Below, piece after piece: positions 6,341 through 63,999 of a DNA stretch of 64,000 nt. Under the pieces are notes generated by a model. It saw only the letters and a program-made list of their open reading frames with translations. It did no database searches and had not been told where the DNA came from. Position numbers and translations under genes: made by a program. Origin of the DNA: Leifsonia shinshuensis (GTDB lineage: Bacteria; Actinomycetota; Actinomycetes; Actinomycetales; Microbacteriaceae); NCBI RefSeq assembly GCF_013410375.1, contig NZ_JACCFL010000001.1, positions 1,736,001-1,800,000 of the forward strand, given 5' to 3'. The stretch's first letter is position 1; each line of letters begins with the position of its first letter.

Positions 6341-6432
6341 CGGGCCCTCCGGCCGGTTTCCCCCAAGGAGGGGGAGCGGGGCGGCAGAGCGGGCGGCCGC
6401 CTCTCGCCCGCGACGGTAGGCTGGAACACCGT

Positions 6433-8235: not shown

Positions 8236-8327
8236 CGGCGTCGGCATCGGAGGACATCCACCCCCACACGCCGCACCACCGCGGCCAACGGAGGAGATCC
8301 GGGGCAGGAGCGGGCGAAAGTCCTCCG

Positions 8328-8897
8328 CTAGCTGCCTTCCGGCGGCGTGTCGGGGCGGATCTCCTCCGCTGCCAGCGCCTCGAACAGCTCCATCCGCACG
8401 TTGTAGTACGCGTCGGAGGGCCCGAGCCGGCGCATCCCGATCCGCTCGCAGACGCGCTGCGATGCCGCGTTCTCCGGGTAGGTGACCGCGACCACCCGCG
8501 GCAGGTCGGCGAGCGCCGCCGTCAGGAGGGCGCGCGCCGCCTCCGCCGCGTAGACGTGGCCCCAGTGGTCCGGGTGGAAGTGCCAGCCGATCTCGGTGTC
8601 GCCGGACGGGCGCAGCGGCTCGGGCCCAGAAGCCGGGATCGGCTGCAGCATCACCGTGCCGACCGGCGTCCCGTCGGCGAGCTCGACCACGCGGAAGACC
8701 CGCAGGTCGTCCTCCAACGCCCGCAGCCGCGCGATCCGCCGCTCGGCCTCCGCCGGCTCCGTCATCACGGCCGGAGTGCGGCCGAGGTACCGTGCGACCT
8801 CCCACCGCGAGTAGAGGTCGAATGCGAAGTCCGCGTCGTCGTCGTGCCAGGGCCGCAGGACGAGGCGGTCGGTGGTGAGGGTGGTCGGGATGCGCAC
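8328..8897 (-). CDS. GNAT family N-acetyltransferase (RimJ/RimL type)
   Basis: This roughly 189-residue acetyltransferase begins with TDRLVLRPWHDDD, the usual start of the RimJ/RimL-like GNAT branch. It contains EIGWHFHPDHWGHVYAAEAARALL (the acetyl-CoA site region) and NAASQRVCERIGMRRLG. The substrate may be a protein N-terminus or a small molecule; sequence does not tell. I place the start at GTG 8897 because the domain begins directly after it. GTG 8930 would add 11 residues. It is divergent from the AidB-like gene. Confidence 0.85.
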   Translation of the reverse strand: MRIPTTLTTDRLVLRPWHDDDADFAFDLYSRWEVARYLGRTPAVMTEPAEAERRIARLRALEDDLRVFRVVELADGTPVGTVMLQPIPASGPEPLRPSGDTEIGWHFHPDHWGHVYAAEAARALLTAALADLPRVVAVTYPENAASQRVCERIGMRRLGPSDAYYNVRMELFEALAAEEIRPDTPPEGS

Positions 8898-8953
8898 CGA
8901 TTCAGCGTAATCGGGAGCGGCCCGCCGCACCGCGCCCGGATTAGACTCGCCGC

Positions 8954-10579
8954 ATGCCGACGCACACCGTTGTGACTCAGGCCGCCGCTCCCGTGCTGAA
9001 CCAGGCGCCGCCGCGCGTCGGGCTGGACGAGTTCGCCGCGAACCTCCCGCTGCGGGAGGCCGTGCAGCGTTACGACGGCGAGTGGGCGGTCTCCGACCTC
9101 GCGGCGGTCGGCCGGCTGGTCGGGTCGGCGGACTTCCAGGCCGACGCCGAGCGGGCGAACGTGCGGGAGCCGCAGCTGCGGACCTTCGACCGCTGGGGCG
9201 CCCGCGTCGACGAGGTCGACTACGACGAGAGCTACCACCGGATCATCCGCGAGGCCGTCGCCGCGGGCGCGCACACCGCGGCCTGGGCCGAGCCGCGGCC
9301 GGGCGCGAACGTCGCGCGCGCCGCGACCTTCATGCTGTTCGCGCAGGTGGAGCCCGGCCACGCCTGCCCCGTGTCGATGTCGCACGCGGCCGTCCCCGCG
9401 CTCGCCGCCTCCCCGGAGCTCGCCGCCGAGTGGGTGCCGCGGCTGCTGTCGCGGGAGTACGACGGCCGGCTGACCGCGGGCAAGCCGTCGGCGCTGTTCG
9501 GGATGGCGATGACCGAGAAGCAGGGCGGCTCGGATGTGCGCGCCAACACGACCAGGGCGCTCGCCGACGGCGACGGCGGCTGGCTGCTGACCGGCCACAA
9601 GTGGTTCTGCTCCGCGCCGATGTCCGACGCGTTCCTGGTGCTCGCGCAGACCGCGGGCGGCCTGAGCTGCTTCGTCGTGCCGCGGGTGCTGGAGGACGGC
9701 ACGCGCAATGTCTTCCTCATCCAGCGGCTGAAGGACAAGCTCGGCAACCGCTCCAACGCCTCCAGCGAGATCGAGCTGGCCGACACCGTCGGCTACCTCC
9801 TGGGCGAGGAGGGTCGCGGCGTGCGCACCATCCTGGAGATGGTGAACCGCACCCGGCTGGACTGCGTGCTCGGCAGCGCGGCCGGGATGCGGCAGGCCGT
9901 CGCGGAGGCGGCCTGGCACGTCCGGCACCGCGCCGCGTTCGGCCGCAGGCTGGTCGAGCAGCCCGCGATGACCGCGGTGGTCGCCGATCTGGCGCTGGAG
10001 TCGGAGGCCGCCACCGCGGTCGCGCTCCGGCTGGCGCGCGCGCACGACGACGACGCCACGGACGCCGAGGTCGCGTTCCGGCGGCTGGCTACCGCGGTGA
10101 GCAAGTACTGGGTCTGCAAGCGCGGCCCGGGCCACGCGTACGAGGCGATGGAGTGCCTGGGCGGCAACGGCTACACCGAGGCCTTCCCGCTGGCCCGGCG
10201 CTACCGGGAGCAGCCGGTGATGGCGATCTGGGAGGGCTCGGGCAACGTCATCGCGCTCGACGTGCTGCGTGCCCTCGGCCGGGAGCCCGCGAGCGTGGAG
10301 GCGTTCGACGCGGAGCTCGCGGCTGCCCGGGGGACCCACGCGGCGTTCGACACGCACCACGACCGGCTGCGCCGCGCGATCGCCTCGGCCGACGAGTCGA
10401 CGGCGCGCGGCCTGGTCGCGGGGCTCGCGCTGGCGCTGCAGGCGTCGCTGCTGATCCGGCACGCCCCGGCCGCCGTCGCGGACGCGTTCGTCGCAGGCCG
10501 CCTGGGACCGGACCGCGGCTCGCTCCACGGGGAGCTGCCGGCGGGGGTGGACGCGACCGCGATCGTGGCGCGCGCCTGA
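8954..10579 (+). CDS. AidB-like acyl-CoA dehydrogenase family flavoprotein
   Basis: This 541-residue FAD-dependent protein is of the AidB branch of the acyl-CoA dehydrogenase family. It shows GMAMTEKQGGSDVRANTT in the FAD-binding middle domain, a KWFCSAPMSDAFLVLAQ strand, and YEAMECLGGNGYTE and MAIWEGSGNVIALDVLRAL in the C-terminal helical domain. The last two are typical of AidB, a DNA-binding flavoprotein of the alkylation response, but its true substrate here is unknown. A TAGACT box (8942-8947) sits six bases before the ATG, suggesting a leaderless mRNA. It converges on the membrane protein gene 18 bp downstream. Confidence 0.88.
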   Translation: MPTHTVVTQAAAPVLNQAPPRVGLDEFAANLPLREAVQRYDGEWAVSDLAAVGRLVGSADFQADAERANVREPQLRTFDRWGARVDEVDYDESYHRIIREAVAAGAHTAAWAEPRPGANVARAATFMLFAQVEPGHACPVSMSHAAVPALAASPELAAEWVPRLLSREYDGRLTAGKPSALFGMAMTEKQGGSDVRANTTRALADGDGGWLLTGHKWFCSAPMSDAFLVLAQTAGGLSCFVVPRVLEDGTRNVFLIQRLKDKLGNRSNASSEIELADTVGYLLGEEGRGVRTILEMVNRTRLDCVLGSAAGMRQAVAEAAWHVRHRAAFGRRLVEQPAMTAVVADLALESEAATAVALRLARAHDDDATDAEVAFRRLATAVSKYWVCKRGPGHAYEAMECLGGNGYTEAFPLARRYREQPVMAIWEGSGNVIALDVLRALGREPASVEAFDAELAAARGTHAAFDTHHDRLRRAIASADESTARGLVAGLALALQASLLIRHAPAAVADAFVAGRLGPDRGSLHGELPAGVDATAIVARA

Positions 10580-10597
10580 GCGGTCGGCGCCGCGGCC

Positions 10598-11638
10598 TCA
10601 CGGCGACCAGTTGAACAGGTCCAGTGCTCCGAGGAGGTCGAAGGCCGATCCGGCGGAATCGACGACGCTGCCGATGGCGTCGACGACGCCCAGGATGTCA
10701 CCGAAGGCACCGGCCGCATGGAGAATGTCGGCGGCGGACTGCGCGACGCCCCCCAGCCCGGTGAGGGTGTCCGCGTCCAGCGCGCCGTAGTCGACGGCGA
10801 TCACCTTCGTCCACTCCCGTTCCATGCCGAAGATCACGGCGTACGGGAGCAGCCGCTCGTGCAGCTTCAAGCGCACCGCGTCGCCGTCCGGACCGGCGGG
10901 CAGTCCTTCGGCGCCGCGCGGCGACTGGAGCGTGCGGAGCCTGTCGGCCTCCGCCAGCCTCATGTACTGGCGGAGGCCGTCCAGGTGCATCCGCTGTGCC
11001 GTTGCCGCCGGGGTGAACCGCCGCGGGGTGATCCGCGCGGCCACGGCGATCTCGGCGACCAGGACCGCGACCGCGGCGGTCGCCAGGACGCCGAGGAGGA
11101 GACCGCCCGCGAGGTATGCGATAAGGGCGACGGCCACCGCGATCAGGAGGACGACCATCCCGGCCCGCAGCAGCAGCGGACCGGCGATACCGTCCGAGGC
11201 CAGCAGCCCGGCGCGGTGCAGGCGGGACACGCTCACCCGGACGAGGTCGCGCACCCGGAACGCGGTCTGATCCCTGTCCTTCGAGAGCCGGCGCCGCTTT
11301 CCACGGCTGGAGGCGAACAGCGCGTCGAGCAGCGCGAGGTCCTCGCGGCCGAGCGCCTCCGGCTGCGGGATTTCGATCGCGATCGTGGGTCGAGTCCGCT
11401 TGGGCGCCGGCTCGGTGATCAGCCTGACGCGCCCGCGGACGGTCAGGTCGAGGAGCGCGGCCGCAGCCGCCCGCTTCTCCCGCACGGCGAGCACCGCGTC
11501 GTCGACCACCCGGGCGCCCCGGAGCGGCAGGTACTCGACGACGAGCGAGCCCGGCAACCGTGAGGTGCGCCGTGCGATCAGGGTCGCGGTGAACAGCAGC
11601 GTCGCCGCCGCGACGAGCAGCAGTGCGCCGAGGACCAT
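10598..11638 (-). CDS. Uncharacterised membrane protein (DUF2207-like C-terminal region)
   Basis: This 346-residue protein is not assigned to a known function. It begins with a membrane segment (LGALLLVAAATLLFTATLIA) and then a cytoplasmic region with LPLRGARVVDDAVLAVREKRAAAAALLDLTVRG, which resembles a small winged-helix fold. Two closely spaced hydrophobic helices follow at about 170-210. The tail is soluble and contains RQYMRLAEADRL and LPYAVIFGMEREW. This pattern, with the ERLLPYAVxFG-type motif, is seen in DUF2207 proteins, although the large extracellular N-terminal domain is absent. I chose ATG 11638 because the in-frame extension upstream is antisense to the neighbouring gene. Confidence 0.72.
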   Translation of the reverse strand: MVLGALLLVAAATLLFTATLIARRTSRLPGSLVVEYLPLRGARVVDDAVLAVREKRAAAAALLDLTVRGRVRLITEPAPKRTRPTIAIEIPQPEALGREDLALLDALFASSRGKRRRLSKDRDQTAFRVRDLVRVSVSRLHRAGLLASDGIAGPLLLRAGMVVLLIAVAVALIAYLAGGLLLGVLATAAVAVLVAEIAVAARITPRRFTPAATAQRMHLDGLRQYMRLAEADRLRTLQSPRGAEGLPAGPDGDAVRLKLHERLLPYAVIFGMEREWTKVIAVDYGALDADTLTGLGGVAQSAADILHAAGAFGDILGVVDAIGSVVDSAGSAFDLLGALDLFNWSP

Positions 11639-11711
11639 CCCGTCAGCATAGGAGCAGGAGGGCAGTGTGCACCCGCCCCGGTTCTGGGGTGAGGTCGGGA
11701 GTGAGCCGGGG

Positions 11712-14327
11712 CTATTCCGCAGCTGCGCTCTCGGTCGCCGCCTCCCCGGGGGATGCGACGGGCACCGGCGCCGGCGCGTCCAGCGGCACCGCGGACGGCG
11801 CGACCGCTCGCACCTCCGGAGCGGCCGGCACGACGGGCTCCGCCCCGATCGCACGGTAGAACTCGCCGACCGCCTTGCGGTTGTAGGCCGCCCAGTCGAA
11901 CACGCTGTCGGGGACGTCGCCGCGCAGGTAGGCGCGCATCCCGTCGGCGACCCCGTCGACCGACTGCGGGACGACCAGGCCGCTTCCGGCCGGCAGCGCG
12001 TTCTTCGCCGACGCGAACTCCACGGTCACGATCGGGAGCCCCAGCACGAGGGCCTCGAGGATGACCATCGGCTGGCCCTCGTAGTCGCTCGACAGCACGA
12101 AGCAGTCGGCCTTCGCCATGATCGCGTGCGGGTTGCGCTGCATCCCGGTGAGGTACACCGAGCCCTGCAGGCCCAGCTCCGTCACCACGGCCGCCAGGTG
12201 ATCCTCGAGCGGCCCGGAGCCGACCAGGACCAGGCGGGTCTTCGGGTTCTCCGCGTGCACCTGCGCGAACGCGCGGATCAGCCGCTCCTGGTTCTTCTCC
12301 GGCGACAGCCGGCCCACGTTGACGAACGTCGTGACGTCCCCGGCGGGGGCGAGGAGCGCCTCGGCCCAGTCCGGGACGCTGCCGGTCTCCTCGTCGAACG
12401 TCAGCTCGCGGAGGTCGCCCTGCGCGTTCTCGAGGATGTGCTCGGCGTCGACGGTGTTGAGCGCGGAGAGGAACTTCTGCGGCGGGGCGAACTCCGCCAG
12501 CGACGCGCGGTTCACGTCGGAGAGTGTGGGGGAGACGGACACCAGGTGGTCGTACTGCGCGTACAGGGTGAAGAGCTGCGTGAGCGAGTGCAGCATCTTC
12601 TTCTCGCCGTTGACCTCGCGGTGGGCGTCCGAGGCGAGGTCGTTGTGCAGCCAGATCGCGCGCTGGGCGTCGGGCGAGTGCAGCAGCAGGATCGCCCAGA
12701 ACGGCCCGTAGCCGGAGAAGTCGACCACGTAGTCGAAGCGGCTGTCGCCGAAGCAGCGGTACCACTCGTCGTCCCAGAGCCGGTTCTGCGCCTCGGTCTC
12801 GGCGTGCTGAGCGGTGCGGCCGCGGCGGAAGTCGAGGTGGCGGGCGAGATGCCGGAGCTTGGCGCCGTTCATGCCCCCGACCCGCGGGAACTGGCGGACC
12901 GCGGGGTGGATCTGCTGCTGCTTGCCGATGATCGCGGGCACGGTGGACTGCGCGAAGAACGCCGAGACGTCGAAGCGCTCGTGGTCGAGGTTGTTGAGCA
13001 GGTTGAGCGCGGACGTCGTGATGCCGTTCGGGCGCATGCCGCCGACGTACAGCAGGATCTTCTCGCGGCCGTCGTCGTCCAGCCCGGTGCGCAGCCGGTA
13101 GCCGTCCCTGGCCCCGCGGAACACGATGTCGACGATGCGCGAGGCGGCCGAGCCGTCCTCGTACGCGGTGAACCGGCGCTGCAGGGCGAGGTAGCGCTCG
13201 CGCGCCTCGGCGGGGACGCGGTCGCCGTCCGCAGCGACAGCGGCCAGGGCGTCGCCCAGCTCGCGGGCGGACATCAGCACGGGACCCGGCCACTCGGTCG
13301 GCTCGAAGTAGAGCCCGCGGGTGCCGGCGTAGTCGGCGAGGTCGGGCGTGAAGAACAGGATGGGCCGGCCGGTGCGGAGGAAGTCGAAGAAGATGCTCGA
13401 GTAGTCGGTCACCAGGATGTCGGTCGCCCCGAGCACGAGGTTGGTCGGGATCTCGTTGGGCACGAGCATCCTGGCCAGCTCCGGCCGGCCGGCGGCGAGC
13501 GCGTGGACGCTCTGGTGGGTCTTGACGAGCACGGCGTACCTGCTCGTGTCGATGCGCTCCTCCACCTGGGCGATGTGGGCGAGGAGGGCGTCGAGGTCGT
13601 CCTCCGGACGTCCGAAGACCTGTCCCTTCCAGGTCGGCGCGTAGAGCACGATCTTGCGGTCGCCGAGCGGGATCCCGGACGCGGCCAGGCGCCTGCGCAC
13701 CTCGTCGCGCCCGGCGTCGTCGAGGAACTGGCGGTCGAGCCGTGGGTAGCCCTCCTCGACGATGGTGCCGCGGTACAGCCCGTCGAGCTTGTACGCGGTG
13801 CGGTACATCTGGTCGGTCATGAACTCGTTCGCCGACAGCAGGTAGTCGGCCTGGACGAAGTTGCGCACGATGTTCGCGGTCGCGAGCGCGCCGCCGTCGA
13901 TGTCGTAGCCCATCCGCTTCAGCGGGGTGCCGTGCCAGGTGTTGAGGTAGACCTGGCCCTGCCGCTTGGAGAAGTCGTACGGGAAGGTGGCGTTGTTGAC
14001 CAGGTACTGGCTGGTCGCCAGGGCCCGGTAGTAGGCCGCGGACCCGTAGCGGACGAAGCTGACGCGAGGGTCGTCGGCGAACTCCTCGACCGCCGCGCGG
14101 TACGTGTGCAGGTCGGACAGCGCCCAGATGTGGGTGAGATGCCTGAGGTCGGGCGCGGCGAGCAGCTCCCGGAACACGGCCTCCGGGTTGTCGAGCATGC
14201 CGTTGCCGGAGAACGACTCGTACAGCACGGAGCCGAGGACGATGGGCTGCCGGCGCCAGTGCGCGTGGATCTCGAAGCGGGCTGCGCGCTTCACTCGCGA
14301 GGGGAGGCGCTTCAGGGAAAGTCTCAT
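11712..14327 (-). CDS. Two-domain cell-wall polymer enzyme: CDP-glycerol glycerophosphotransferase fused to GT4 glycosyltransferase
   Basis: This 871-residue protein has two parts. Residues 1-400 resemble TagB/TagF-type polyol-phosphate transferases: YLVNNATFPYDFSKRQGQVYLNTWHGTPLKRMG holds the catalytic histidine region, followed by VLYAPTWKG and DILVTDYSSIFFDF. Residues 420-830 form a GT-B glycosyltransferase of family 4, with FVNVGRLSPEKNQERLIRAF and SDYEGQPMVILEALVLGLPIV. The last 40 residues are Pro/Ala-rich. No signal peptide or membrane helix is evident, so it probably acts at the inner membrane face in teichoic-acid-like glycopolymer synthesis. The donor and acceptor cannot be read from sequence. 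Confidence 0.85.
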   Translation of the reverse strand: MRLSLKRLPSRVKRAARFEIHAHWRRQPIVLGSVLYESFSGNGMLDNPEAVFRELLAAPDLRHLTHIWALSDLHTYRAAVEEFADDPRVSFVRYGSAAYYRALATSQYLVNNATFPYDFSKRQGQVYLNTWHGTPLKRMGYDIDGGALATANIVRNFVQADYLLSANEFMTDQMYRTAYKLDGLYRGTIVEEGYPRLDRQFLDDAGRDEVRRRLAASGIPLGDRKIVLYAPTWKGQVFGRPEDDLDALLAHIAQVEERIDTSRYAVLVKTHQSVHALAAGRPELARMLVPNEIPTNLVLGATDILVTDYSSIFFDFLRTGRPILFFTPDLADYAGTRGLYFEPTEWPGPVLMSARELGDALAAVAADGDRVPAEARERYLALQRRFTAYEDGSAASRIVDIVFRGARDGYRLRTGLDDDGREKILLYVGGMRPNGITTSALNLLNNLDHERFDVSAFFAQSTVPAIIGKQQQIHPAVRQFPRVGGMNGAKLRHLARHLDFRRGRTAQHAETEAQNRLWDDEWYRCFGDSRFDYVVDFSGYGPFWAILLLHSPDAQRAIWLHNDLASDAHREVNGEKKMLHSLTQLFTLYAQYDHLVSVSPTLSDVNRASLAEFAPPQKFLSALNTVDAEHILENAQGDLRELTFDEETGSVPDWAEALLAPAGDVTTFVNVGRLSPEKNQERLIRAFAQVHAENPKTRLVLVGSGPLEDHLAAVVTELGLQGSVYLTGMQRNPHAIMAKADCFVLSSDYEGQPMVILEALVLGLPIVTVEFASAKNALPAGSGLVVPQSVDGVADGMRAYLRGDVPDSVFDWAAYNRKAVGEFYRAIGAEPVVPAAPEVRAVAPSAVPLDAPAPVPVASPGEAATESAAAE

Positions 14328-55272: not shown

Positions 55273-55857
55273 TCAGTCGGCGATCCGCACCCGGCCGTTG
55301 CTGAGGTCGGCGAGCGCGATCGCCGTCGCGTCTCTTGCCATGGCGGGCACCCGGAGGAGCAGCAGCACGGCCTCCCCGTATTCGGCCTCCGGCTCGGCGT
55401 AGCCCTCCGCCTCCGCCCAGCGGCGGACCCGCTCCGCGTCGGCGTAGTCGGCCTCCACGCGCAGGACGGTCTCCGGGATGCGCTCCACCTTCTCCGCCCC
55501 GGCCACCGCCAGAGCCACCGCGTCGGTGTACGCGCGCACCAGCCCGCCCGCGCCGAGCTTCACGCCGCCGAAGTAGCGGACCACCGCCCCGAGCACCCCG
55601 TCCAGGTCGTGGTGCCGCAGCACCTCCAGGATCGGGCGCCCGGCCGTCCCGGACGGCTCCCCGTCGTCCGACATTCCGGAGTGGCCGCCCGCGAGCAGCG
55701 CCCAGCAGACGTGCGCGGCCGCCGGATGCTCCGCGCGCAGCCGCGCCACCTCGGCCAGCGCCGCCTCCCGGTCTTCGACCGGGGTGACGAGCGCGAGGAA
55801 GCGACTGCGCCGGACCTCCAGCTCGGCGGTGGCGGGGGAGGCGAGGGTGTGGGTCAT
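55273..55857 (-). CDS. YigZ/IMPACT family protein
   Basis: This 194-residue protein has the IMPACT/YigZ N-terminal domain: VRRSRFLALVTPVEDREAALAEVARL, HVCWALLAG, DDGEPSGTAGRPILEVL and VVRYFGGVKLGAGGLVRAY. A smaller ferredoxin-like C-terminal domain of the DUF1949 type follows. Members bind nucleic acids or ribosome-linked factors; the exact role is not settled. ATG 55857 starts directly before the domain; the upstream frame is not coding. Confidence 0.92.
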   Translation of the reverse strand: MTHTLASPATAELEVRRSRFLALVTPVEDREAALAEVARLRAEHPAAAHVCWALLAGGHSGMSDDGEPSGTAGRPILEVLRHHDLDGVLGAVVRYFGGVKLGAGGLVRAYTDAVALAVAGAEKVERIPETVLRVEADYADAERVRRWAEAEGYAEPEAEYGEAVLLLLRVPAMARDATAIALADLSNGRVRIAD

Positions 55858-56031
55858 GGGGTGGCTCGGGAGTGGCTGACGGATGGAGGTCGTGGACCAG
55901 GATATGGCGGGGAGCAGCCGGGCGGCGCACAGCCGCGTCGGGCAGGGGGTCGAGTCCCGCCCACCGGAGGTCCACCCGCGCTCCACCCGCGGGAGGAGCC
56001 GCTTCGTGCCCGGCCTGCGTAGACAGGAGGG

Positions 56032-57246
56032 GTGACCCCGAATCCTCGCTCCCCTCGTTCATCGCACCCCGTCCTCCGCGCCGCCGGCGGGGTGGTCCTC
56101 GCGCTCTGCGGCGTGCTGCTGCTCCTGCGCGGCGTCATCGGCTTCGGGCCCGACGCTCCGCAGGGGACCGGCCCGCACCTTCTCGCTGTCGCGCTGATGG
56201 TCGTCGGCGCCGCCGCGATCCTCGGCGCGGTCCTCCTCGGCCGCACGGCCCGGGCGGCGATGGTCGCGGTCGTCGTCTCCCTCGGGGTGCTCACGGTCGG
56301 GCTCGGTGCGGGCGTCGCAACCGCCCTTGCACCGTGCTCCTTCCCGGCGGCGTCCCGGAGCGGACTGACCACCGACGACACACAGGCGACCGGCAGTGCG
56401 CCGGCGCCGTCGGGCGTGTTCCGGGCGACCGACGGCACCCGCCTCGCCTACTACGCCTTCGTCCCGGCGCACCCCGTCGCGAGCCTGGTGTTCTCCCACG
56501 GCTCGGGCGCGAACAGCGCCGCAGGCTATCTCCCGCTCGCGCGCGAACTGGACCGGGAGTACGGGATTGCGACGTACCTGGTGGACCTCCGCGGTCACGG
56601 CGCATCCGGCGGCCCGCGCGGCGATACCCCGAGCGTGGCCCAGCTGCAGCGGGACGAGCAGACCGCCGTCGACGGCGTCCGACGCGCGCTGCCCGGCCTC
56701 CCCGTATTCGTGGGCGGCCATTCGGCCGGCGCCGGCGTCGTGCTGAACTCGGTCCCGCGGATCGCGCGCGAGGTCGCCGGCTACGTCTTCGTCGCGCCCG
56801 ACTTCGGTCTGCACTCCGGAACCGAACTCGCCACGGACGCGTCGAACTTCGCGACGGTGTGCCAGCGCCCGCTCGTCGCCGCGACCGTCACGGACGGCCT
56901 CCTGGATGCGCACGCCCCGGCCGTCGGCTTCGCCTACACCGCGGCCCAGATCACCGACGCGCACCTCGTCGACCGCTACACCGCCGACATGGCGATCGGG
57001 CAGAACCCCGCCGACGCGGCCGGGACGCTCGCCGCCATCCGCCGGCCGGTCGGCGTCTGGGTGGGAGCGGACGACGAGGTGTTCGCCGCGGCACGCGTGG
57101 TCGCCTACGCCGGGCACGCTCCCTACGTGACGACGGAGATCGTCCCGGGGGCGACGCACCTGGGCGTCCTGGACACGGTCGCGTCGGACATCGGTCCGTG
57201 GGTCGATCGGGTCGCCCAGACCGGCAACGCGTCCGGTACGCGTTGA
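56032..57246 (+). CDS. Membrane-anchored alpha/beta hydrolase (lysophospholipase-like)
   Basis: This 404-residue protein has three N-terminal membrane helices (residues about 15-95) and a C-terminal alpha/beta-hydrolase. The hydrolase shows LVFSHGSGANSAAGYLPLARELD, YLVDLRGHGASGG, the nucleophile elbow VGGHSAGAGVVLNSV and a late GATHLGVLD with the catalytic His. It resembles monoacylglycerol or lysophospholipase-type enzymes; the substrate is unknown. TAGACA (56020-56025) lies six bases before the GTG start, so the transcript may be leaderless. It is the last host gene before the inserted element. Confidence 0.85.
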   Translation: MTPNPRSPRSSHPVLRAAGGVVLALCGVLLLLRGVIGFGPDAPQGTGPHLLAVALMVVGAAAILGAVLLGRTARAAMVAVVVSLGVLTVGLGAGVATALAPCSFPAASRSGLTTDDTQATGSAPAPSGVFRATDGTRLAYYAFVPAHPVASLVFSHGSGANSAAGYLPLARELDREYGIATYLVDLRGHGASGGPRGDTPSVAQLQRDEQTAVDGVRRALPGLPVFVGGHSAGAGVVLNSVPRIAREVAGYVFVAPDFGLHSGTELATDASNFATVCQRPLVAATVTDGLLDAHAPAVGFAYTAAQITDAHLVDRYTADMAIGQNPADAAGTLAAIRRPVGVWVGADDEVFAAARVVAYAGHAPYVTTEIVPGATHLGVLDTVASDIGPWVDRVAQTGNASGTR

Positions 57247-57272
57247 TGTCCATCCATCGACGGAAAGGCCAG

Positions 57273-57295
57273 TGCCCCCAGTGGGACTCGAACCC
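57273..57295 (-). other. Attachment-site remnant: 3' end of a tRNA gene
   Basis: Read leftward, this is GGGTTCGAGTCCCACTGGGGGCA, the T-loop, 3' T-stem, acceptor strand and discriminator of a tRNA. The 5' three quarters of a tRNA are missing to its right. Such 3' fragments are left when an element integrates into a tRNA gene. Phage-like genes start directly beyond it. The tRNA species cannot be named from the fragment. Confidence 0.75.
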
Positions 57296-57439: not shown

Positions 57440-57658
57440 ATGAGCGATTTGAGGCCCGCGCCGAGGCCGCTTGCGTACTCGATCGAGGATGCGGCGAGAG
57501 CGTCCGGCTATTCGATCTCAGTGCTCCAGCGGGCAATCGCAAGAGGTGAGCTCTCGAAGCGTTACGCGAACCGAAAGGGCGTCATCCTCGCCGACGAGCT
57601 CGATGAGTGGCTGCACTCACTGCCTACCGAACCGCCAGGTGGGGCGTCCGTCGAATGA
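57440..57658 (+). CDS. Excisionase-family / MerR-like helix-turn-helix protein
   Basis: This 72-residue protein has the compact winged-helix pattern of excisionases: LAYSIEDAARASGYSISVLQRAIARGELSKRYANRKGVILADELDEWLHSLP. The segment contains the two helices and the turn (R-A-G-S) that precedes a wing. Located 145 bp from the tRNA-fragment attachment site, it probably directs excision of the element. No integrase gene is seen nearby. It converges on the next small gene with no space between stops. Confidence 0.8.
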   Translation: MSDLRPAPRPLAYSIEDAARASGYSISVLQRAIARGELSKRYANRKGVILADELDEWLHSLPTEPPGGASVE

Positions 57659-57898
57659 CTAGTCGGAGAGTTCGACCACTCGAGCTGTGGTGTCGATCAT
57701 TTCGGCCCCTGCGTACTCCGGCTTCACCGCGATCTCCGCGTGCAGCTTCTGCCGGCCCTCGGGGGAGTTGAGCGCCGCGGAGATCTGCTCCGCACGCTCG
57801 CGATTGTCAACTGTGATGTACGTGACTTCGGCGTTAGACGTCAGGCTTGCGAGCGGTCCCACCAAGAGACTGTAAACGACTGCATATCTGGTTGCCAT
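57659..57898 (-). CDS. Hypothetical element protein
   Basis: This 79-residue protein is of unknown function. It begins ATRYAVVYSLLVGPLASLTSNAEVTYITVDNRERAEQISAALNS and ends EMIDTTARVVELSD. The alternation of strands and one helix suggests a small alpha/beta fold. It has no signal and only weak hydrophobicity. Its ATG at 57898 is preferred over one eight codons earlier. GC is lower than in host genes, consistent with the element. Confidence 0.6.
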   Translation of the reverse strand: MATRYAVVYSLLVGPLASLTSNAEVTYITVDNRERAEQISAALNSPEGRQKLHAEIAVKPEYAGAEMIDTTARVVELSD

Positions 57899-58033
57899 GC
57901 TTCGCACGCTAGCGCACACCATCTGCAGGAGGTCCCGAAGATGGTGCTCCGTGTGGAAAAAAAATGCCGGGGAGAGATCGCGTGGACTGGCGGGTCATCG
58001 GTCCTCAAAGGCCCTGAAGAATCGACAGGGCCA

Positions 58034-58082: not shown

Positions 58083-60128
58083 TCAGAAGGCGTAGATGCC
58101 GGGCTGGGCGACGTCTACGAGCGCTCCTGTGGCGTGTGCCGCTGGCGTGGTGCCGTTGGCGCCGCGGGTGATGGTGGCTGTCTGTGTGCTGCCGCTGAGC
58201 GCTGTGCAGGCGGTGACGGTGACCTGCTCGGAATCGACCTGGAGTGTGTAGGGCACCTGTACCGTCTCGAGGAACGTGAGCGGGCTCGCCGTGGCCACGA
58301 CCATGCTGGTCGCGCCGGCGGTGAGCGCGCTGGACAGGGTGAGGTCCGTGCCGGCTGAGAAGACGTCCGTGTCGAAGACCGCTGTGCTGGGCAGCACGGG
58401 TGCGAGGTACAGGGTGAAGACGTCGCCGCTCAGAGTGTTGTGGACTTCGGTCGCACCGAGGAACCAGCCGTCCCATTGAGTGAATCCGAGCGCGGCCGTG
58501 GGCAGGTTCGTCAGGCGCACCCGGTCGCCGAGGTTCAGGCCCAGTAGCTGCGCGAGCGTGACCGCGGAGGTGGTCGTGTTGATATCGACCTTGGAGACCT
58601 TCAGCGCGACGTTCTCGCCGCGCTGCAGGCGGTCTTGGGCGTATCCGAGCAGATCGGTCGGGTTGGCGAGGGTGACTGTTTCTGACGTCGCTGCGGCGCC
58701 CACGCGGGCGACTGCGGCGCGGTCGGTGGCGGCGGCGCTGTTGCTGGGTCCAGAGGCGGTGATAGTGGCGTAGAGGTTCGTGACGTCGCGGTCGATCTGG
58801 GGCAAGCCTTCGATGTCGGCTGCTGCGTCGAGGGTCAGCGTGACCGCGGTCGGTCGGGTGCGTGCCCGCATGTTGACGGTCGTGGTCGGCGCGAGCAGGG
58901 TCCCGGTCGTGGCGGCGTAGAGGTGGCCCTGCTCGGTGCGGACCGCGTCGCACATCAGCGACCAGGCTGTGACGTTGGATGCGGTGGGTGGTCCGATGGG
59001 TGCGGTAGAGATGTTCGGGTCGAGGGTGCCGATGGTCATGCCGGGCACCGTCTGCGCGAGCGCGCGAACCCGGTTCGCAGTTGTCGTCGGTGAGGCCGCG
59101 TATTCCTCATGGATCAGGACCGGGGAGTGCGAGAAGTGCGAGAACGACGGTGAGTAGCTCCCGGTGCCGTCTCCCGCGAAGAGGCGCACGTACTTGGGCT
59201 GTGCGAGCGCGTTGGTGAGCGTGCCCGCGACGGTGCCCGTGCTGGTGCCGGCGGCGACACCGTCGATGTAGAGCGTCGCGGTGAATGTCGTGCCGGCGTA
59301 GGTGGTCCCGAGCGCGAAGTAGTGGGTGAGCCCGTCGAAGGCCACCGTTGTGCCTCCGCTGGTCCATCCTGGCGCGCCGAACGAGACGCTCGATCCCTGG
59401 AAGCGCCAGAACCCGGCGTAGCTGCCGGAAGGCCCGGAGTCGATCTCGACGAATGATGCAGCGTTGGGCGTGTACCAGAGACCCCAGAACCCGAGGGAGC
59501 CGGCCGGGTAGTTGATGACGGGGAACGGGCCGGTTGCCTGCATCGCCGCTGCGGCTGCGGCGGTCGCCGGGAGTGCCATCTGAGTGTCGGTCGTAGCGGG
59601 GACGCCTGGCAGCCCGAACACGCCCGGGTTGCCGGGCGGCTGCGTCGTGAGGCTCGGGCCGCCGTTGCCGGACGTTTCGGCGGCCTGGCCGCTGCTGGCG
59701 GCGTCGTTCAGAGACCAGTACAGCCACGCATTCGTGCTGGCCATTGTGGCAGCGATATCGCCGACGAGCGTGCGGTTAGCGAAGTAGAAGATGTCGCCGC
59801 AGGTGATCGTCACGCGGCCCCATTCCGTCTCCGACGACGCGAAACCGATCGCGGACACCATCCCGCTCACGAGACGACCGCCGATCGACCAGCACACCGC
59901 AGTGCCCTCGGTCAGCGGCGACGCGTAGGGGGTGCTGAGGTTGCCCGGCGTGAAGCGACCGTCGTAGTTGTCGAGGATGAACGTCACCTGGCCCGGGTTC
60001 GGGTCGCGGAACTCCGACTGACGACCGTAGCTGTACGCGACGCCCTCAGGGCCGGTGCAGTACGCCGAGACGTCGACCAGAGCGCCGGCGGCGCCGACTC
60101 CGAGAGCGATCTGCTGCGTGGTACTCAT
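58083..60128 (-). CDS. Phage minor tail protein with concanavalin/LamG-like domain
   Basis: This 681-residue structural protein is phage-like. The N-terminal 130 residues (VDVSAYCTGPEGVAYSYGRQSEFRDPNPGQVTFILDNYDGRFTPGN) match baseplate or minor-tail proteins of actinophages. Residues about 185-340 form a jelly-roll lectin-like domain (WFWGLWYTPN-like LGFWGLWYTPNAASFVEID, then YFALGTTYAGTTFTATLYIDGV). The C-terminal half is beta-rich (RVRLTNLP, FLGATEVHNTLSGDVFTLYLAPV). It is probably for host recognition. AGGAG precedes the ATG. It is the last gene of the leftward operon. Confidence 0.82.
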   Translation of the reverse strand: MSTTQQIALGVGAAGALVDVSAYCTGPEGVAYSYGRQSEFRDPNPGQVTFILDNYDGRFTPGNLSTPYASPLTEGTAVCWSIGGRLVSGMVSAIGFASSETEWGRVTITCGDIFYFANRTLVGDIAATMASTNAWLYWSLNDAASSGQAAETSGNGGPSLTTQPPGNPGVFGLPGVPATTDTQMALPATAAAAAAMQATGPFPVINYPAGSLGFWGLWYTPNAASFVEIDSGPSGSYAGFWRFQGSSVSFGAPGWTSGGTTVAFDGLTHYFALGTTYAGTTFTATLYIDGVAAGTSTGTVAGTLTNALAQPKYVRLFAGDGTGSYSPSFSHFSHSPVLIHEEYAASPTTTANRVRALAQTVPGMTIGTLDPNISTAPIGPPTASNVTAWSLMCDAVRTEQGHLYAATTGTLLAPTTTVNMRARTRPTAVTLTLDAAADIEGLPQIDRDVTNLYATITASGPSNSAAATDRAAVARVGAAATSETVTLANPTDLLGYAQDRLQRGENVALKVSKVDINTTTSAVTLAQLLGLNLGDRVRLTNLPTAALGFTQWDGWFLGATEVHNTLSGDVFTLYLAPVLPSTAVFDTDVFSAGTDLTLSSALTAGATSMVVATASPLTFLETVQVPYTLQVDSEQVTVTACTALSGSTQTATITRGANGTTPAAHATGALVDVAQPGIYAF

Positions 60129-60514: not shown

Positions 60515-61900
60515 TTAGAAGGTCGGTGCGACCAGGCCGGTGCCGGTGATGGTCACGATCGACTGCGGGAGGCGGTGTGCCAGCGCCATGTAGTTGTAGA
60601 CGCGGGCGAACAGGCTGAGCTGGTTCGCGTAGGTCTGCTGGAACACCTCCGCGCGGATGGTGCCCTCGTACAGCCACGAGTCGTCGGCCTTCAGCACGAG
60701 GATGACATCCTGGTTCGTGCCGGTGCCAACGTTGATCGGGATGTTCGGGTCGACGATCACGGGCAGGCCGAACATCTTGCCGACGACGCCCTGCGCGTTG
60801 CCGTTGACCTGGATACCGGACGCGTTGAGCGGGCCGTTGGCGTCGGGCAGGATCACGGCGCGGTTCGACGCGTCGACCTGGACGGCTGCCCACGCCCAGC
60901 GCCGCGGGTGCATGATGATCGCGGACGCGGCGGCGAACCGGCTGGTCTGGACCGTCTGCACGGCCTTGCCGATCTGAGCGTAGATCTTCCCGGCGCCCAT
61001 GAACGCGGGGCTCGCGTCGGTGTAGGTCTGCACGGTGCCGGCGGCTGTGATGAGGCCGGTGGGCTGTCCGCCGGTGCCGGTGCCGTTGAGGACGAGAGAT
61101 CCGACCTGGCGGGCGTAGTCGGCCATGAGGTCCTGGAGGATCACCTTGTCCATGTGTCCGGCGATCGGGGACTGGTCGAAGAGCTGCTGGGCGACGGTCT
61201 GGCCACCTGCGATCGTGATGACCGACGCGGCAACGGTCCCGGTCGTGATGTCGGTCTGCTGGATGCCGGTGTTCTGTGTGGCCTGGATCGCGGCCGCGGT
61301 TCCGGTGACGACCTTGGGCACGTTGATGACGTCGGTGCCGGCGGGCAGATCGAGGTTGGTCAGAGCGTCCGCGGTGGCGCGTGCTGGGCGCAGCGCTTCG
61401 ATGTAGTTGTCGACCAGCCACAGCGGCGGCACGAATTCGCCGCCGGTTCCGTTGGACGTGGAGATCGCGCGGATCTCGTTCGCCTTGGAATCGCTGAGGT
61501 CGCGGATGCCGTCGCTGAACTCGCTGCGGTGGCGGTCGAGGCGCTCACGGGCGCCGGAGTCGCCCCGGCTGGCCTCGAGCATGTCGCGGAAGTACGAGTG
61601 CCGCGACTCCGGGTTGTACGTTCCGCCGACCGTCGAGGTGCGTCCCGGCGTGCCGGCCAGTCCGAGCCTGCGGAACTCACGACCGAGGCGTTCGCGGGTG
61701 GCGTCCTCGACCTCCAGGTCGCGGATCTTCGCATCGATGCTTCGGATGTCGCTCTTGTGCTCTTCGATCTTGGCGTTCTCGCCGGTGGAGATCGAACGCT
61801 TGAAGGTTTCGGCCCTGGTGACGATCGTGTCGATCTCACCGAGGGCTTTGTCGCGGGCCTCGTTGAGGATGTCGAGGCGGGAACGGGTGTCGAGTTCCAT
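60515..61900 (-). CDS. HK97-type major capsid protein
   Basis: This 461-residue protein has an N-terminal coiled-coil delta region of about 110 residues (RLDILNEARDKALGEIDTIVTRAETFKRSI, then IEEHKSDIRSIDAKIRDLE). The HK97 capsid fold follows: GTGGEFVPPLWLVDNYIEAL, VILQDLMADYARQVGSLVLNGTGTGGQPTG, RFAAASAIIMHPRRWAWAA and FGLPVIVDPNIP. The delta region is normally removed by a prohead protease, and no protease gene is seen beside it. GGGAG precedes the ATG. A hairpin separates it from the tail gene. Confidence 0.9.
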   Translation of the reverse strand: MELDTRSRLDILNEARDKALGEIDTIVTRAETFKRSISTGENAKIEEHKSDIRSIDAKIRDLEVEDATRERLGREFRRLGLAGTPGRTSTVGGTYNPESRHSYFRDMLEASRGDSGARERLDRHRSEFSDGIRDLSDSKANEIRAISTSNGTGGEFVPPLWLVDNYIEALRPARATADALTNLDLPAGTDVINVPKVVTGTAAAIQATQNTGIQQTDITTGTVAASVITIAGGQTVAQQLFDQSPIAGHMDKVILQDLMADYARQVGSLVLNGTGTGGQPTGLITAAGTVQTYTDASPAFMGAGKIYAQIGKAVQTVQTSRFAAASAIIMHPRRWAWAAVQVDASNRAVILPDANGPLNASGIQVNGNAQGVVGKMFGLPVIVDPNIPINVGTGTNQDVILVLKADDSWLYEGTIRAEVFQQTYANQLSLFARVYNYMALAHRLPQSIVTITGTGLVAPTF

Positions 61901-61964: not shown

Positions 61965-62366
61965 CTACATGCCGTCCGGCTGCTCGTCGTACCCGGTGAC
62001 CGAATCCACGGAATCTCGGGGTGAAAGCCTGGTCTGTTGCGGTGCCCCTCCAGGCTCTTGCCACTCTTGTCCAGCTACGACGACGGTAGCACCGTCCACC
62101 GACAGGGGCGGCGCGGCCGGCGGCGTGCCGTACACGAATTCGGCGCGGTGCAGCTCGTCCCGCCATGACCCGGTGAGCCACCAGTCGAGCATGTCGACGT
62201 GCTGCTGGATGAGGTCGTTGCGTAGGTGCGGGGACAGGGCATTCATGTCCTCGACTGCGAGGCCACGGATGACGCCGTGAATCTGGAGCTCGCGAGCATT
62301 GGTCTGAACGATGGTGAGGATGCGGTCGAGGACGATTTCCGCGAGGACTGGGTTGTGTCCGAGCAT
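61965..62366 (-). CDS. Hypothetical phage-element protein upstream of the capsid gene
   Basis: This 133-residue protein has no recognised domain. The N-terminal half is helical (NPVLAEIVLDRILTIVQTNARELQIHGVIRGLAVEDMNALSPHLRNDLIQQHVDMLDWWLTG). The C-terminal half is Pro/Gln-rich and disordered. AAGGA precedes ATG 62366 at good spacing. The slot immediately before a capsid gene often holds a scaffold, protease or portal-related protein, but this sequence lacks such motifs, so I assign no function. Confidence 0.7.
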   Translation of the reverse strand: MLGHNPVLAEIVLDRILTIVQTNARELQIHGVIRGLAVEDMNALSPHLRNDLIQQHVDMLDWWLTGSWRDELHRAEFVYGTPPAAPPLSVDGATVVVAGQEWQEPGGAPQQTRLSPRDSVDSVTGYDEQPDGM

Positions 62367-62380
62367 GGGGTTCCTTCGGG

Positions 62381-62587
62381 TCAGCGGCGGCGCGTGAAGC
62401 GACGTCGCGGGGTGGGGCGGTTCGGGGTGATGCCGAGGGCGGCGTTGCGTTCGATCGCGCGCTGGTGGCGTTCCTGGGCTCGTTCCTGCTCGAGCTCGCG
62501 GTTGGCGTTGTCACAGTCGGAGCAGCGAGGCTGGAAGGCTTCGCCAACGTGGCGGTCGCACCGTGCGCCGAGATCTTGGATCGTCAT
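62381..62587 (-). CDS. Small zinc-finger-like, highly charged protein
   Basis: This 68-residue protein has a possible metal-binding site C-x2-H near residues 10-13 and C-x2-C at 22-25 (CDRHVGEAF, CSDCDNAN). A charged helix (ANRELEQERAQERHQRAIERN) and a basic tail (RPTPRRRFTRRR) follow. Its ATG overlaps the initiator gene's stop (ATGA), so the two are translated together. A nucleic-acid-binding accessory role in replication is plausible but unproven. Confidence 0.65.
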   Translation of the reverse strand: MTIQDLGARCDRHVGEAFQPRCSDCDNANRELEQERAQERHQRAIERNAALGITPNRPTPRRRFTRRR

Positions 62588-63114
62588 GCTGACTGCCTCT
62601 CGTCGGAGTTATCCACAGGCTGCAAGTGAGATGCCTCCGTAAATCGAGGTGTTCGTCGCTGTAGTTCTTCCTGTGGTTCCTCAGTGGTTCCTTGGGGGGT
62701 GGAATTGCCAACCCCTTCAAGGTGAGAATCCCCACCCCATCCCGGGTGGGATTCCCCACCTTTCTGGTGGTGGGATTGCCCACCCCTGAACGTGAGGACG
62801 AACTCAGCTCGCCGCCCGTTCCGACCCCGTTGCTTGCGCTCAATCGCACCGGACTTCACGAGCCCTTGCACAGCCGTTTTGACTGCCCAGAAGGCCGCGT
62901 CGCGAGCACCTATCGCACGAGGGTCGAGAGTGGTCTTGTCCTCCACCATGCGGCCGAGGCCGTAGGCGGATTCCTCGCGTGACGCGAAGTAGCGGGGCGG
63001 CTGGTCGGAATCGAGCGCAGTGAGCGCCATGAAGATCAACAGCCGGAACTCGTTCGGCTTGAGATCATTCGCGGCGGCGAACGCGAACGCCTTTCCGACC
63101 AGATGCGCCCCCAC
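62584..63114 (-). CDS. Replication initiator-like winged-helix protein with origin iterons inside its gene
   Basis: This 176-residue protein has an N-terminal winged-helix domain (LKPNEFRLLIFMALTALDSDQP, YFASREESAYGLGRMV, FWAVKTAVQGLVKSGAIERKQRGRNGRRAEFVLTF), as in phage replication proteins. Its C-terminal third is a low-complexity repeat, GGQSHHQKGGESHPGWGGDSH and onward. This is the translation of four 16-bp DNA iterons, with a DnaA box near the gene end. That layout copies lambda O. GTG 63114, directly after the upstream stop and preceded by GAGG, is the better start; ATG 63135 would overlap the upstream gene. Confidence 0.78.
   Translation of the reverse strand: MGAHLVGKAFAFAAANDLKPNEFRLLIFMALTALDSDQPPRYFASREESAYGLGRMVEDKTTLDPRAIGARDAAFWAVKTAVQGLVKSGAIERKQRGRNGRRAEFVLTFRGGQSHHQKGGESHPGWGGDSHLEGVGNSTPQGTTEEPQEELQRRTPRFTEASHLQPVDNSDERQSA
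62609..62784. other. Probable replication origin: four iterons and a DnaA box
   Basis: Four near-palindromic 16-mers of the form GGTGGGATTSCCCACC lie at 62698-62713, 62721-62736, 62745-62760 and 62769-62784, so they start 23, 24 and 24 bp apart. TTATCCACA (62609-62617) is a perfect DnaA box. The 80 bp between box and iterons is AT-richer and has GTGGTTCCT twice. All of this lies inside the initiator gene. Confidence 0.75.
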
Positions 63115-63115
63115 G

Positions 63116-63691
63116 TCAGCCGTCCTCGCCCTCATCGGTGACGATCGGGGTGTTGTCCGGCTGGTGAACGTCTGCGACGAGCAGCCGCAGGCTCGTGCCG
63201 CTCAGCTCCGCGTCGAGGACGTCGAACCTGCCGATAAGGTTGCAGTCGTATCGGGTGTCTCCGCTGCCCCACCCGGCGCCCGGGGTGAGGTGGTCCAGGT
63301 GCGGCATGGTCTCGGCTGCGTGGGCTCTAACCTTCCCTTCCTGCCGGTACAGGTACACCTGACCGCCGGCGACCGGGTTGGTACGCGAGTTGTCGGCGTC
63401 GACCTCGAAGACGCGACCGTGAGCGTTCAGAATCCGCACCTGATTGGCAACGAGCGCCAACGACTGTGCGGCCTTGCGAGCCGCCGCAGCGTCCTCGACG
63501 TCCCCAAGATCGGCGTACACTTCCCAGGTGCCGGATTCGCCGCCGCGGTCGCTCCAGGCATACACCGACAGGTCGGGGTCCGTGGACTGAAGACGCCGGT
63601 ACGTCTGCTCGGGGTAGTCCTCCGGCTCGGTATCGTTGAACGCCTGCTTCAGCAGTTCCGCTCGAAGGTCAATGAGTGTAGAATTTTGCAT
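63116..63691 (-). CDS. Hypothetical phage-element protein
   Basis: This 191-residue protein has no domain I recognise. It starts QNSTLIDLRAELLKQAFNDTEPEDYPEQTYRRLQSTD and has a beta-rich middle with many aromatic residues (VYAWSDRGGESGTWEVYADLGDVEDAAAARKAAQSLALVANQVRILNAHGRVFEVDAD). It has no signal or membrane segment. ATG 63691 has AGGAG eight bases upstream, so I prefer it to an ATG 25 codons earlier. Its stop touches the GTG start of the initiator, so the two are probably coupled. Confidence 0.7.
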   Translation of the reverse strand: MQNSTLIDLRAELLKQAFNDTEPEDYPEQTYRRLQSTDPDLSVYAWSDRGGESGTWEVYADLGDVEDAAAARKAAQSLALVANQVRILNAHGRVFEVDADNSRTNPVAGGQVYLYRQEGKVRAHAAETMPHLDHLTPGAGWGSGDTRYDCNLIGRFDVLDAELSGTSLRLLVADVHQPDNTPIVTDEGEDG

Positions 63692-63762
63692 GGTTAGTTC
63701 TCCTAGATCTGACTCCCGCCCGCTGTTCCCGCAGCGGGCATTTTCTTTTGCGCCTGCCGACC

Positions 63763-63999
63763 TCACGACCCGGCCGCTGTGCTCGTGCGCTCCTGAGCGC
63801 GCTCATACTCGGCCAGTGCAGCCTCTGAGTAGACGATCTTCTTCGGGCTCAAGCGCACGTATCGCGGGCCGGTGCCCGCGTATCGCAACTGCGCGAGAAC
63901 CTCGACCGTCATGCCGGGCCAGCGTTCGTCGCAGACCTGCTTGGGCGAATAGAAGCGCATTCGTTGCGACTCTGTGATGTCTGGGTGGGTGACCGCCAT
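63763..63999 (-). CDS. AlpA-like helix-turn-helix protein
   Basis: This 78-residue protein contains a short helix-turn-helix of the excisionase/AlpA type: MRFYSPKQVCDERWPGMTVEVLAQLRYAGTGPRYVRLSPKKIVYSEAALAEYERAQERT. Such proteins regulate integrase or phage genes, or bind near the attachment site. It is the most upstream leftward gene visible and its promoter would lie beyond the window. It probably controls the leftward operon. The start at ATG 63999 has no visible upstream context, so a longer form cannot be excluded. Confidence 0.75.
   Translation of the reverse strand: MAVTHPDITESQRMRFYSPKQVCDERWPGMTVEVLAQLRYAGTGPRYVRLSPKKIVYSEAALAEYERAQERTSTAAGS

Follow-up and report, generated by a model that had tools for sequence, protein, structure and literature searches.

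The placement of origin iterons inside the gene of the replication initiator has been stated for lambdoid phages (PMC7466680). The PICI rep-ori, known from SaPIs and E. coli PICIs, belongs to an integrated satellite with an integrase, a regulator, an initiator and iterons beside an AT-rich region; there, the origin lies 3' to the initiator gene, two iteron sets flank the AT-rich region and a primase homolog is described (PMC6092414). For the RepA proteins of mycobacteriophage extrachromosomal prophages (320-350 aa), an origin has been suggested just upstream of or within repA, as in lambda, and the region examined there yielded no repeated motifs (PMC7157519). Finally, a satellite-encoded capsid protein, Ccm, is described for SaPIbov5 (PMC8569155), and the Streptomyces satellites Mulch and Flayer have a capsid gene and are said to be without key replication genes (PMC10690885).

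Here, we analysed a stretch of 64,000 nucleotides of the Leifsonia shinshuensis genome, called the window below. We consider it quite likely that a region near its right end is the DnaA-assisted replication origin of a tRNA-integrated element, the initiator of which would bind iterons located in its own gene, and that the excised circle replicates. What appears to be new here is that iterons placed in the initiator gene, an arrangement known from lambda, are accompanied by a DnaA box of the host type, and that this occurs in Microbacteriaceae on satellite-type and other integrated elements. The features are collected in Table 1.

Table 1. Features of the replication region and of the surrounding element, in window positions
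Feature	Position	Strand	Basis
Iteron 4 (gene direction) GGTGGAATTGCCAACC	62698-62713	+	sequence
Iteron 3 (gene direction) GGTGAGAATCCCCACC	62721-62736	+	sequence
Iteron 2 (gene direction) GGTGGGATTCCCCACC	62745-62760	+	sequence
Iteron 1 (gene direction) GGTGGGATTGCCCACC	62769-62784	+	sequence
DnaA box TTATCCACA	62609-62617	+	translated as PVDN in initiator
Tract, relatively AT-rich, AGGAAC-type repeats; candidate unwinding element	62618..62697		composition
Candidate replication initiator of 176 aa with a putative winged helix at the N-terminus, array from codon 111	62584..63114	-	homologs and replication-initiator PHROG matches
Trp76-Ala77 codons, putative recognition helix, pair that appears to track iteron sequence	62884..62889	-	sequence
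attL, 25-bp direct repeat of tRNA-Leu(taa) 3' end; other copy at window-equivalent 65805	57271..57295		exact repeat; also BLAST, genome 1793261-1793295
72-aa HTH_17/excisionase-like protein	57440..57658	+	PF12728 E=8e-5 (below its cut-off); phrog_66, phrog_1840
87-aa open reading frame	57659..57922	-	no convincing family (Pfam, PHROG, PADLOC)
681-aa tail-like protein	58083..60128	-	phrog_5313 (unknown function) E=1e-29; phrog_1101 (tail) E=6e-9
HK97-type major capsid protein	60515..61900	-	PF05065 E=6e-17; phrog_2263 E=5e-42; TIGR01554
133-aa protein	61965..62366	-	no Pfam/PHROG family; also in second element L043
68-aa CxxH...CxxC protein, overlaps initiator stop codon	62381..62587	-	same gene cluster in L043, L045; phrog_50 (DnaC-like loader) E=0.066
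216-aa protein upstream of initiator	63116..63766	-	no family; L045 relative 67.5% identical
78-aa HTH/excisionase-like regulator	63763..63999	-	gene cluster only, with HTH_17 protein L055:9780-9995; no family of its own

The four 16-bp near-palindromes and the perfect DnaA box, both reported in a preliminary description of the locus, were confirmed: the repeats follow one another at steps of 23, 24 and 24 bp, all within the leftward initiator gene, and the box stands 79 bp past them. TTATCCACA occurs once in the window (0.02 expected), and two perfect copies together with seven one-mismatch boxes were found in the 8 kb around the host dnaA gene. A scan with the iteron consensus, allowing up to three mismatches, returned exactly these four sites in the 64 kb (1.27 expected). 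Since 6 of 100 shuffles reached at least four matches in the same scan, the unusual feature is the tandem arrangement; scored as a tandem palindrome with an allowed spacing of 21-26, a range chosen after the window had been seen, the array gave z = 11.1 and was equalled by none of 200 dinucleotide shuffles. The exact consensus is present at only two sites in the 4.42-Mb genome, both among the four iterons. The tract between array and box is only modestly AT-rich (0.45 against 0.34 for the part of the element lying in the window, where 5.3% of the 80-nt stretches reach 0.45). The preliminary description also noted a GGxSH-like peptide run over the repeats, and this holds for three of the four iterons only, because the 23-bp step shifts the reading frame at the last copy.

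As a control, the same tandem-palindrome scoring was applied to lambda with the spacing widened to 19-26, and it recovered the four annotated iterons (spacing 20/24/23, z = 11.4). The layout proposed as lambda-O-like is supported: in both cases four near-palindromic iterons lie inside the initiator gene (20/24/23 in lambda, 24/24/23 here), the array starts at codon 117 in lambda O and at codon 111 here, and a more AT-rich tract follows, the one here being rich in AT only to a modest degree. However, 154 aa remain after the array in lambda and about 37 aa in the window protein, and the window origin, unlike that of lambda, holds a DnaA box, and no convincing helicase-loader gene was recognised. 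Sequence homology to lambda O itself was not borne out by direct hhalign comparisons, which were not significant (probability about 0.4% and 0.1-0.2%); the matches of family members to phrog_270 and phrog_391, given below, lend it weaker and indirect support. We therefore propose a mode of action like that of lambda O and make no claim of common descent.

The initiator probably starts at GTG 63114 rather than at ATG 63135, because its homologs begin with M/V-G-A. Its assignment to the winged-helix proteins is a prediction for the N-terminal domain, with no Pfam match and weak PHROG matches only. The window protein has no NCBIfam entry either, and Pfam returned nothing convincing for 36 members of the family. 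Searched against the PHROG profiles, it matches replication initiators weakly (E 0.026 and 0.043), and also phrog_2030, a transcription regulator (E 0.088). Its relatives fare better: phrog_270 (replication initiation protein) is matched by 16 of the 36 members at E<=0.1 (best 1.8e-6) and phrog_391 (O-like replication initiation) by 6 of the 36 (best 4.8e-4); the PHROG matches are mainly to replication initiators. A PDB sequence search provided no lead (best E 0.38), tblastn at E 1e-3 found no match to the window initiator among 50,697 records of phages and 72,556 of plasmids, and neither L028 in the plasmid records nor L008 in the phage records gave anything (L numbers designate loci). PADLOC returned nothing. 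Among those listed, the named family members are annotated only as 'hypothetical' or 'uncharacterized', and we recognised no description of this initiator family in the literature searched. The family is best read as an unclassified actinobacterial one with a lambda-O-like, DnaA-assisted origin.

The conservation of the array was examined at 37 loci. This set excludes copies at the same place (L001, L002 and L014, which are the window; L004, which is L016; L005, which is L019; and regions of greater extent, L003 and L043 among them), the close copies L022 and L024 (like L040) and L038 (like L036), and the weak matches L013 and L042. Outside it stand the later identified L062 and L063, whose arrays were scored, L065 and L099, as well as L100 and L101, contigs of L010 and L011. 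At 31 of the 37 loci, none of 200 shuffles equalled the highest-scoring array of four palindromes, and at 28 of these the array lies just past the putative winged-helix part; the significant arrays of L029, L035 and L036 lie a long way from the gene and are not counted among the 28. No significant array was found at L027, L034 and L037 (cut by a contig end) or at L009, L058 and L061. Therefore, homologs that keep the protein without iterons, which the preliminary description had named as an observation against it, account for at most nine loci, those without a significant array close to the gene, and the iterons sought in relatives are kept near the conserved domain at the other 28. Spacings are of 21-25 bp, mostly 23-24, within the allowed range of 21-26, and the half-sites, like the iteron sequence as a whole, vary between loci.

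It is at the level of DNA, not of peptide, that the array is conserved, because none of the 16 arrays wholly inside the gene has all its spacings in multiples of three, and four of the 28 lie wholly past the stop codon (eight more partly so). In L018 and L019 the initiator frame ends before or just inside the array and the iterons are wholly non-coding; in L020 it ends likewise and they are mostly so. The repeat in the peptide is thus best explained as a by-product of conservation at the DNA level. At 14 of the 37 loci, a DnaA box with no more than one mismatch stands 59-79 bp past the last iteron, perfect at 11 and always in a single orientation, and there is none at this place in the other 23; elsewhere in the same stretches (up to 450 nt), only four such boxes occur. 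The PVDN motif near the C-terminal end of many members is the translated box. Between array and box, the tract is moderately AT-rich and carries AGGAAC-type repeats, with 50 occurrences of AGGAA over 28 tracts where base shuffles give 5.6. The layout of array, tract and box therefore recurs in relatives.

The element that carries this region is about 8.5 kb long, as given by the pair of 25-bp repeats of the tRNA end. The window ends inside it, and repressor-like and tyrosine integrase genes continue beyond, the integrase gene adjoining tRNA-Leu(taa). In the relative L069, a host flank like that of the window up to 55856 is followed by the tRNA within about 25 bases, which makes it an unoccupied site. 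Window positions 55857-57270, 1.4 kb beside attL that include a hydrolase-like open reading frame of 404 aa, are also absent from L069 and are perhaps a separate insertion. With its size, its integrase, its att repeats and an incomplete set of phage structural genes (a capsid and a tail-like gene, and no match to PF04860 (portal) or PF03354 (terminase) in the genome, as far as these two families go), the element has PICI-type traits and is probably a phage satellite. Like the PICIs, it is small and integrated, with an integrase, a regulator and an initiator with iterons; unlike them, it has one iteron set inside the gene and a small initiator without a primase family, and no primase family was found among the element proteins scanned. 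The origins of mycobacteriophage RepA are actinobacterial as well, but the window initiator has 176 aa and iterons, whereas RepA is larger and no repeats were identified there. As in SaPIbov5, Mulch and Flayer a capsid protein is encoded, and unlike Mulch and Flayer the element carries an initiator candidate. No helicase-loader gene was convincingly recognised in the element; the 68-aa CxxH...CxxC protein may be regarded as a weak candidate for an accessory factor or loader.

A second, related element of 8.4 kb sits at tRNA-Val elsewhere in this genome and has a repeat of 29 bp (L043; G000:C1:2168000-2187000, 5081-13535). Its tail-like protein is 99.4% identical to that of the window element and its capsid protein 78.5%, whereas the initiators share 32% and the integrases 29%, and its iterons are of a different type, GGGACGCTCACCGTCCC. 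In L045, a Leifsonia element at tRNA-Leu, the integrase is 93%, the initiator 56% and the capsid protein 45% identical to those of the window element. Judging from these identities, the elements look like mosaics that swap origins, integrases and structural genes.

Within the genus, 5 of 28 genomes carry the initiator, and it was detected in at least 26 of 398 sampled genomes of the family, in at least 7 of 396 of the order and in at least 2 of 396 of the phylum, the own genome being included; for family, order and phylum, at most eight candidates were scored per genome, and absences there are consequently weak. Distant relatives are named from Micrococcus flavus and Micromonospora (proteins P0036, P0055 and P0060). 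Three types of context can be distinguished. In the first, the initiator is accompanied by a single phage structural gene or by two: capsid in L054, capsid and a tail-like protein in the window and L043, capsid and a short tape measure in L045, capsid and portal in L048, and a tape measure in L005 and L044. In L005, L044, L045, L048 and L054 the structural genes stand single or in pairs, and the combinations differ. It is as if those of each relative redirected a different part of a helper virion. Boundary repeats derived from tRNA genes were shown for the window, L043, L045, L047 and L048. The second type consists of contigs with terminase and capsid genes, recognised by profile matches in L010 and by gene cluster in L006, L007 and L011; the portal gene cluster is present in L006, L010 and L011. 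Conjugative-type elements, which carry genes for a T4SS pilin and for ParA, make up the third type (profile matches in L055, gene cluster in L052 and L056).

This third context bears on another reading, in which the array is a parS centromere and the winged-helix protein a partition protein: a ParA gene follows closely in L055, and L050, L052 and L056 have genes of the same cluster. However, no gene of the ParA cluster is among the predictions listed for the window element and its small relatives, and an origin agrees better with the fixed distance of the DnaA box, with the conservation of the tract next to the array and with PHROG matches that are mainly to replication initiators. We hold a centromere to be very improbable. 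The repeats could also be operators for autorepression of the operon, with an incidental DnaA box, given that a winged-helix protein binding near-palindromes would also suit a repressor and that phrog_2030 is among the weak matches. This we hold to be very improbable, since in the relatives examined the array occupies the 3' part of the gene or lies past its end, not at its 5' end, the box recurs at a fixed distance at 14 of 37 loci, and four copies about two helical turns apart match the origin of lambda.

A prophage remnant in decay, with an origin that has lost its function, would account for the capsid and tail-like genes being the only structural genes and for the genome-wide lack of PF04860 and PF03354 matches. 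It appears unlikely in view of the relatives, because four of five further elements tested (none in the case of L005) have tRNA-derived boundary repeats giving lengths of 6.6-8.9 kb. In addition, four accessory or structural genes common to both resident elements show dN/dS of 0.11-0.49, and the integrase shared with the Leifsonia element at tRNA-Leu shows 0.15. For the initiator, dN/dS between the two resident elements is 0.72 at dS 1.15, a value with which selection is neither supported nor excluded.

On the preferred reading, a DnaA-assisted origin with iterons in the initiator gene, the initiator would bind as dimers to the four near-palindromic iterons through its putative N-terminal winged helix. 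The complex would open the adjacent AGGAAC-rich, relatively AT-rich tract, and host DnaA, bound at its box beyond the tract, may help to recruit or load the host helicase. The excised circle would then replicate, probably by theta replication.

The variation of the half-sites can be compared with that of the protein. Within the clade to which the window protein belongs, the half-site of the iterons varies together with two residues of the putative recognition helix (motif AAFxxVK). QR is paired with GGTACG (four loci), KA with GGGACG (two), QA with GGTAGG (two) and, at one locus each, WA with GGTGGG, AR with GGGTCG and EL with GGAAAG; of the two loci with EA, one has GGAAGG and the other differs in the outer half. 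Loci with the same pair differ less in their half-sites (distance 0.20 versus 0.41), and the rest of the domain is no more alike (56% versus 56%). This pair, residues 76-77, was noticed first and tested afterwards, and the analysis leaves out L020, L031 and L060, which had passed the array test. A permutation over the 13 loci of the closest clade gave 1/20,000, and the pair ranks third among 2,658 column pairs. When all column pairs are taken into account, the best permuted pair attains its value in 1,355 of 3,000 permutations, and attains that of the top-ranking pair in 370 of 3,000; over single columns, the value of the best one, also residue 76, was reached in 9,825 of 20,000. With either correction, the association is not significant. 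In Mantel tests over 27 loci, the helix correlates with the iterons (r=0.30, p=0.0085; 0.28, p=0.0115 allowing for the rest of the domain), against 0.12 (p=0.077) for the rest of the domain; within the 13-locus clade the test was not significant (p=0.113).

Predictions were then scored for proteins absent from the DNA set, with good success. The model predicted by the residue pair came first of seven for 8 of 12 proteins, out of a batch of 24 in which P0001, P0005, P0008 and P0013 were uncounted as identical to DNA loci and 8 were unscorable, and for 5 of 6 in a second batch of 40 (P0025 uncounted, 33 unscorable); some of the predicted sites are in another reading frame. Among the misses, it came second for P0012, P0015 and P0016, where QR was confused with KA, one base apart, third for P0032 and last of seven for P0018. 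A nearest-relative control cannot separate code from kinship for 12 of the 18, which share the pair with their nearest DNA locus. Of the six informative proteins, four (P0021, P0026, P0028 and P0029) agree with the residue pair instead of the nearest relative, P0018 nominally follows the nearest relative with a low score, and P0032 follows neither. We therefore take the two-residue recognition code as a lead, not as proof.

A broader proposal, to which we give somewhat less than even credence, is that the region is an exchangeable replicon cassette common to satellite-type, phage-like and conjugative-type elements of the Microbacteriaceae. Two adjacent residues of the recognition helix would specify the half-site, the iterons could lie in any frame, and protein and origin would evolve together, thereby defining compatibility groups; two elements with different origins do co-reside in this genome. 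How an initiator and its origin change specificity jointly is an old question for iteron replicons, and here a single stretch of DNA is both. Natural variants are numerous, so that the two-residue code is open to test with native proteins and native sites. If true, small actinobacterial elements would gain a recognisable replication gene.
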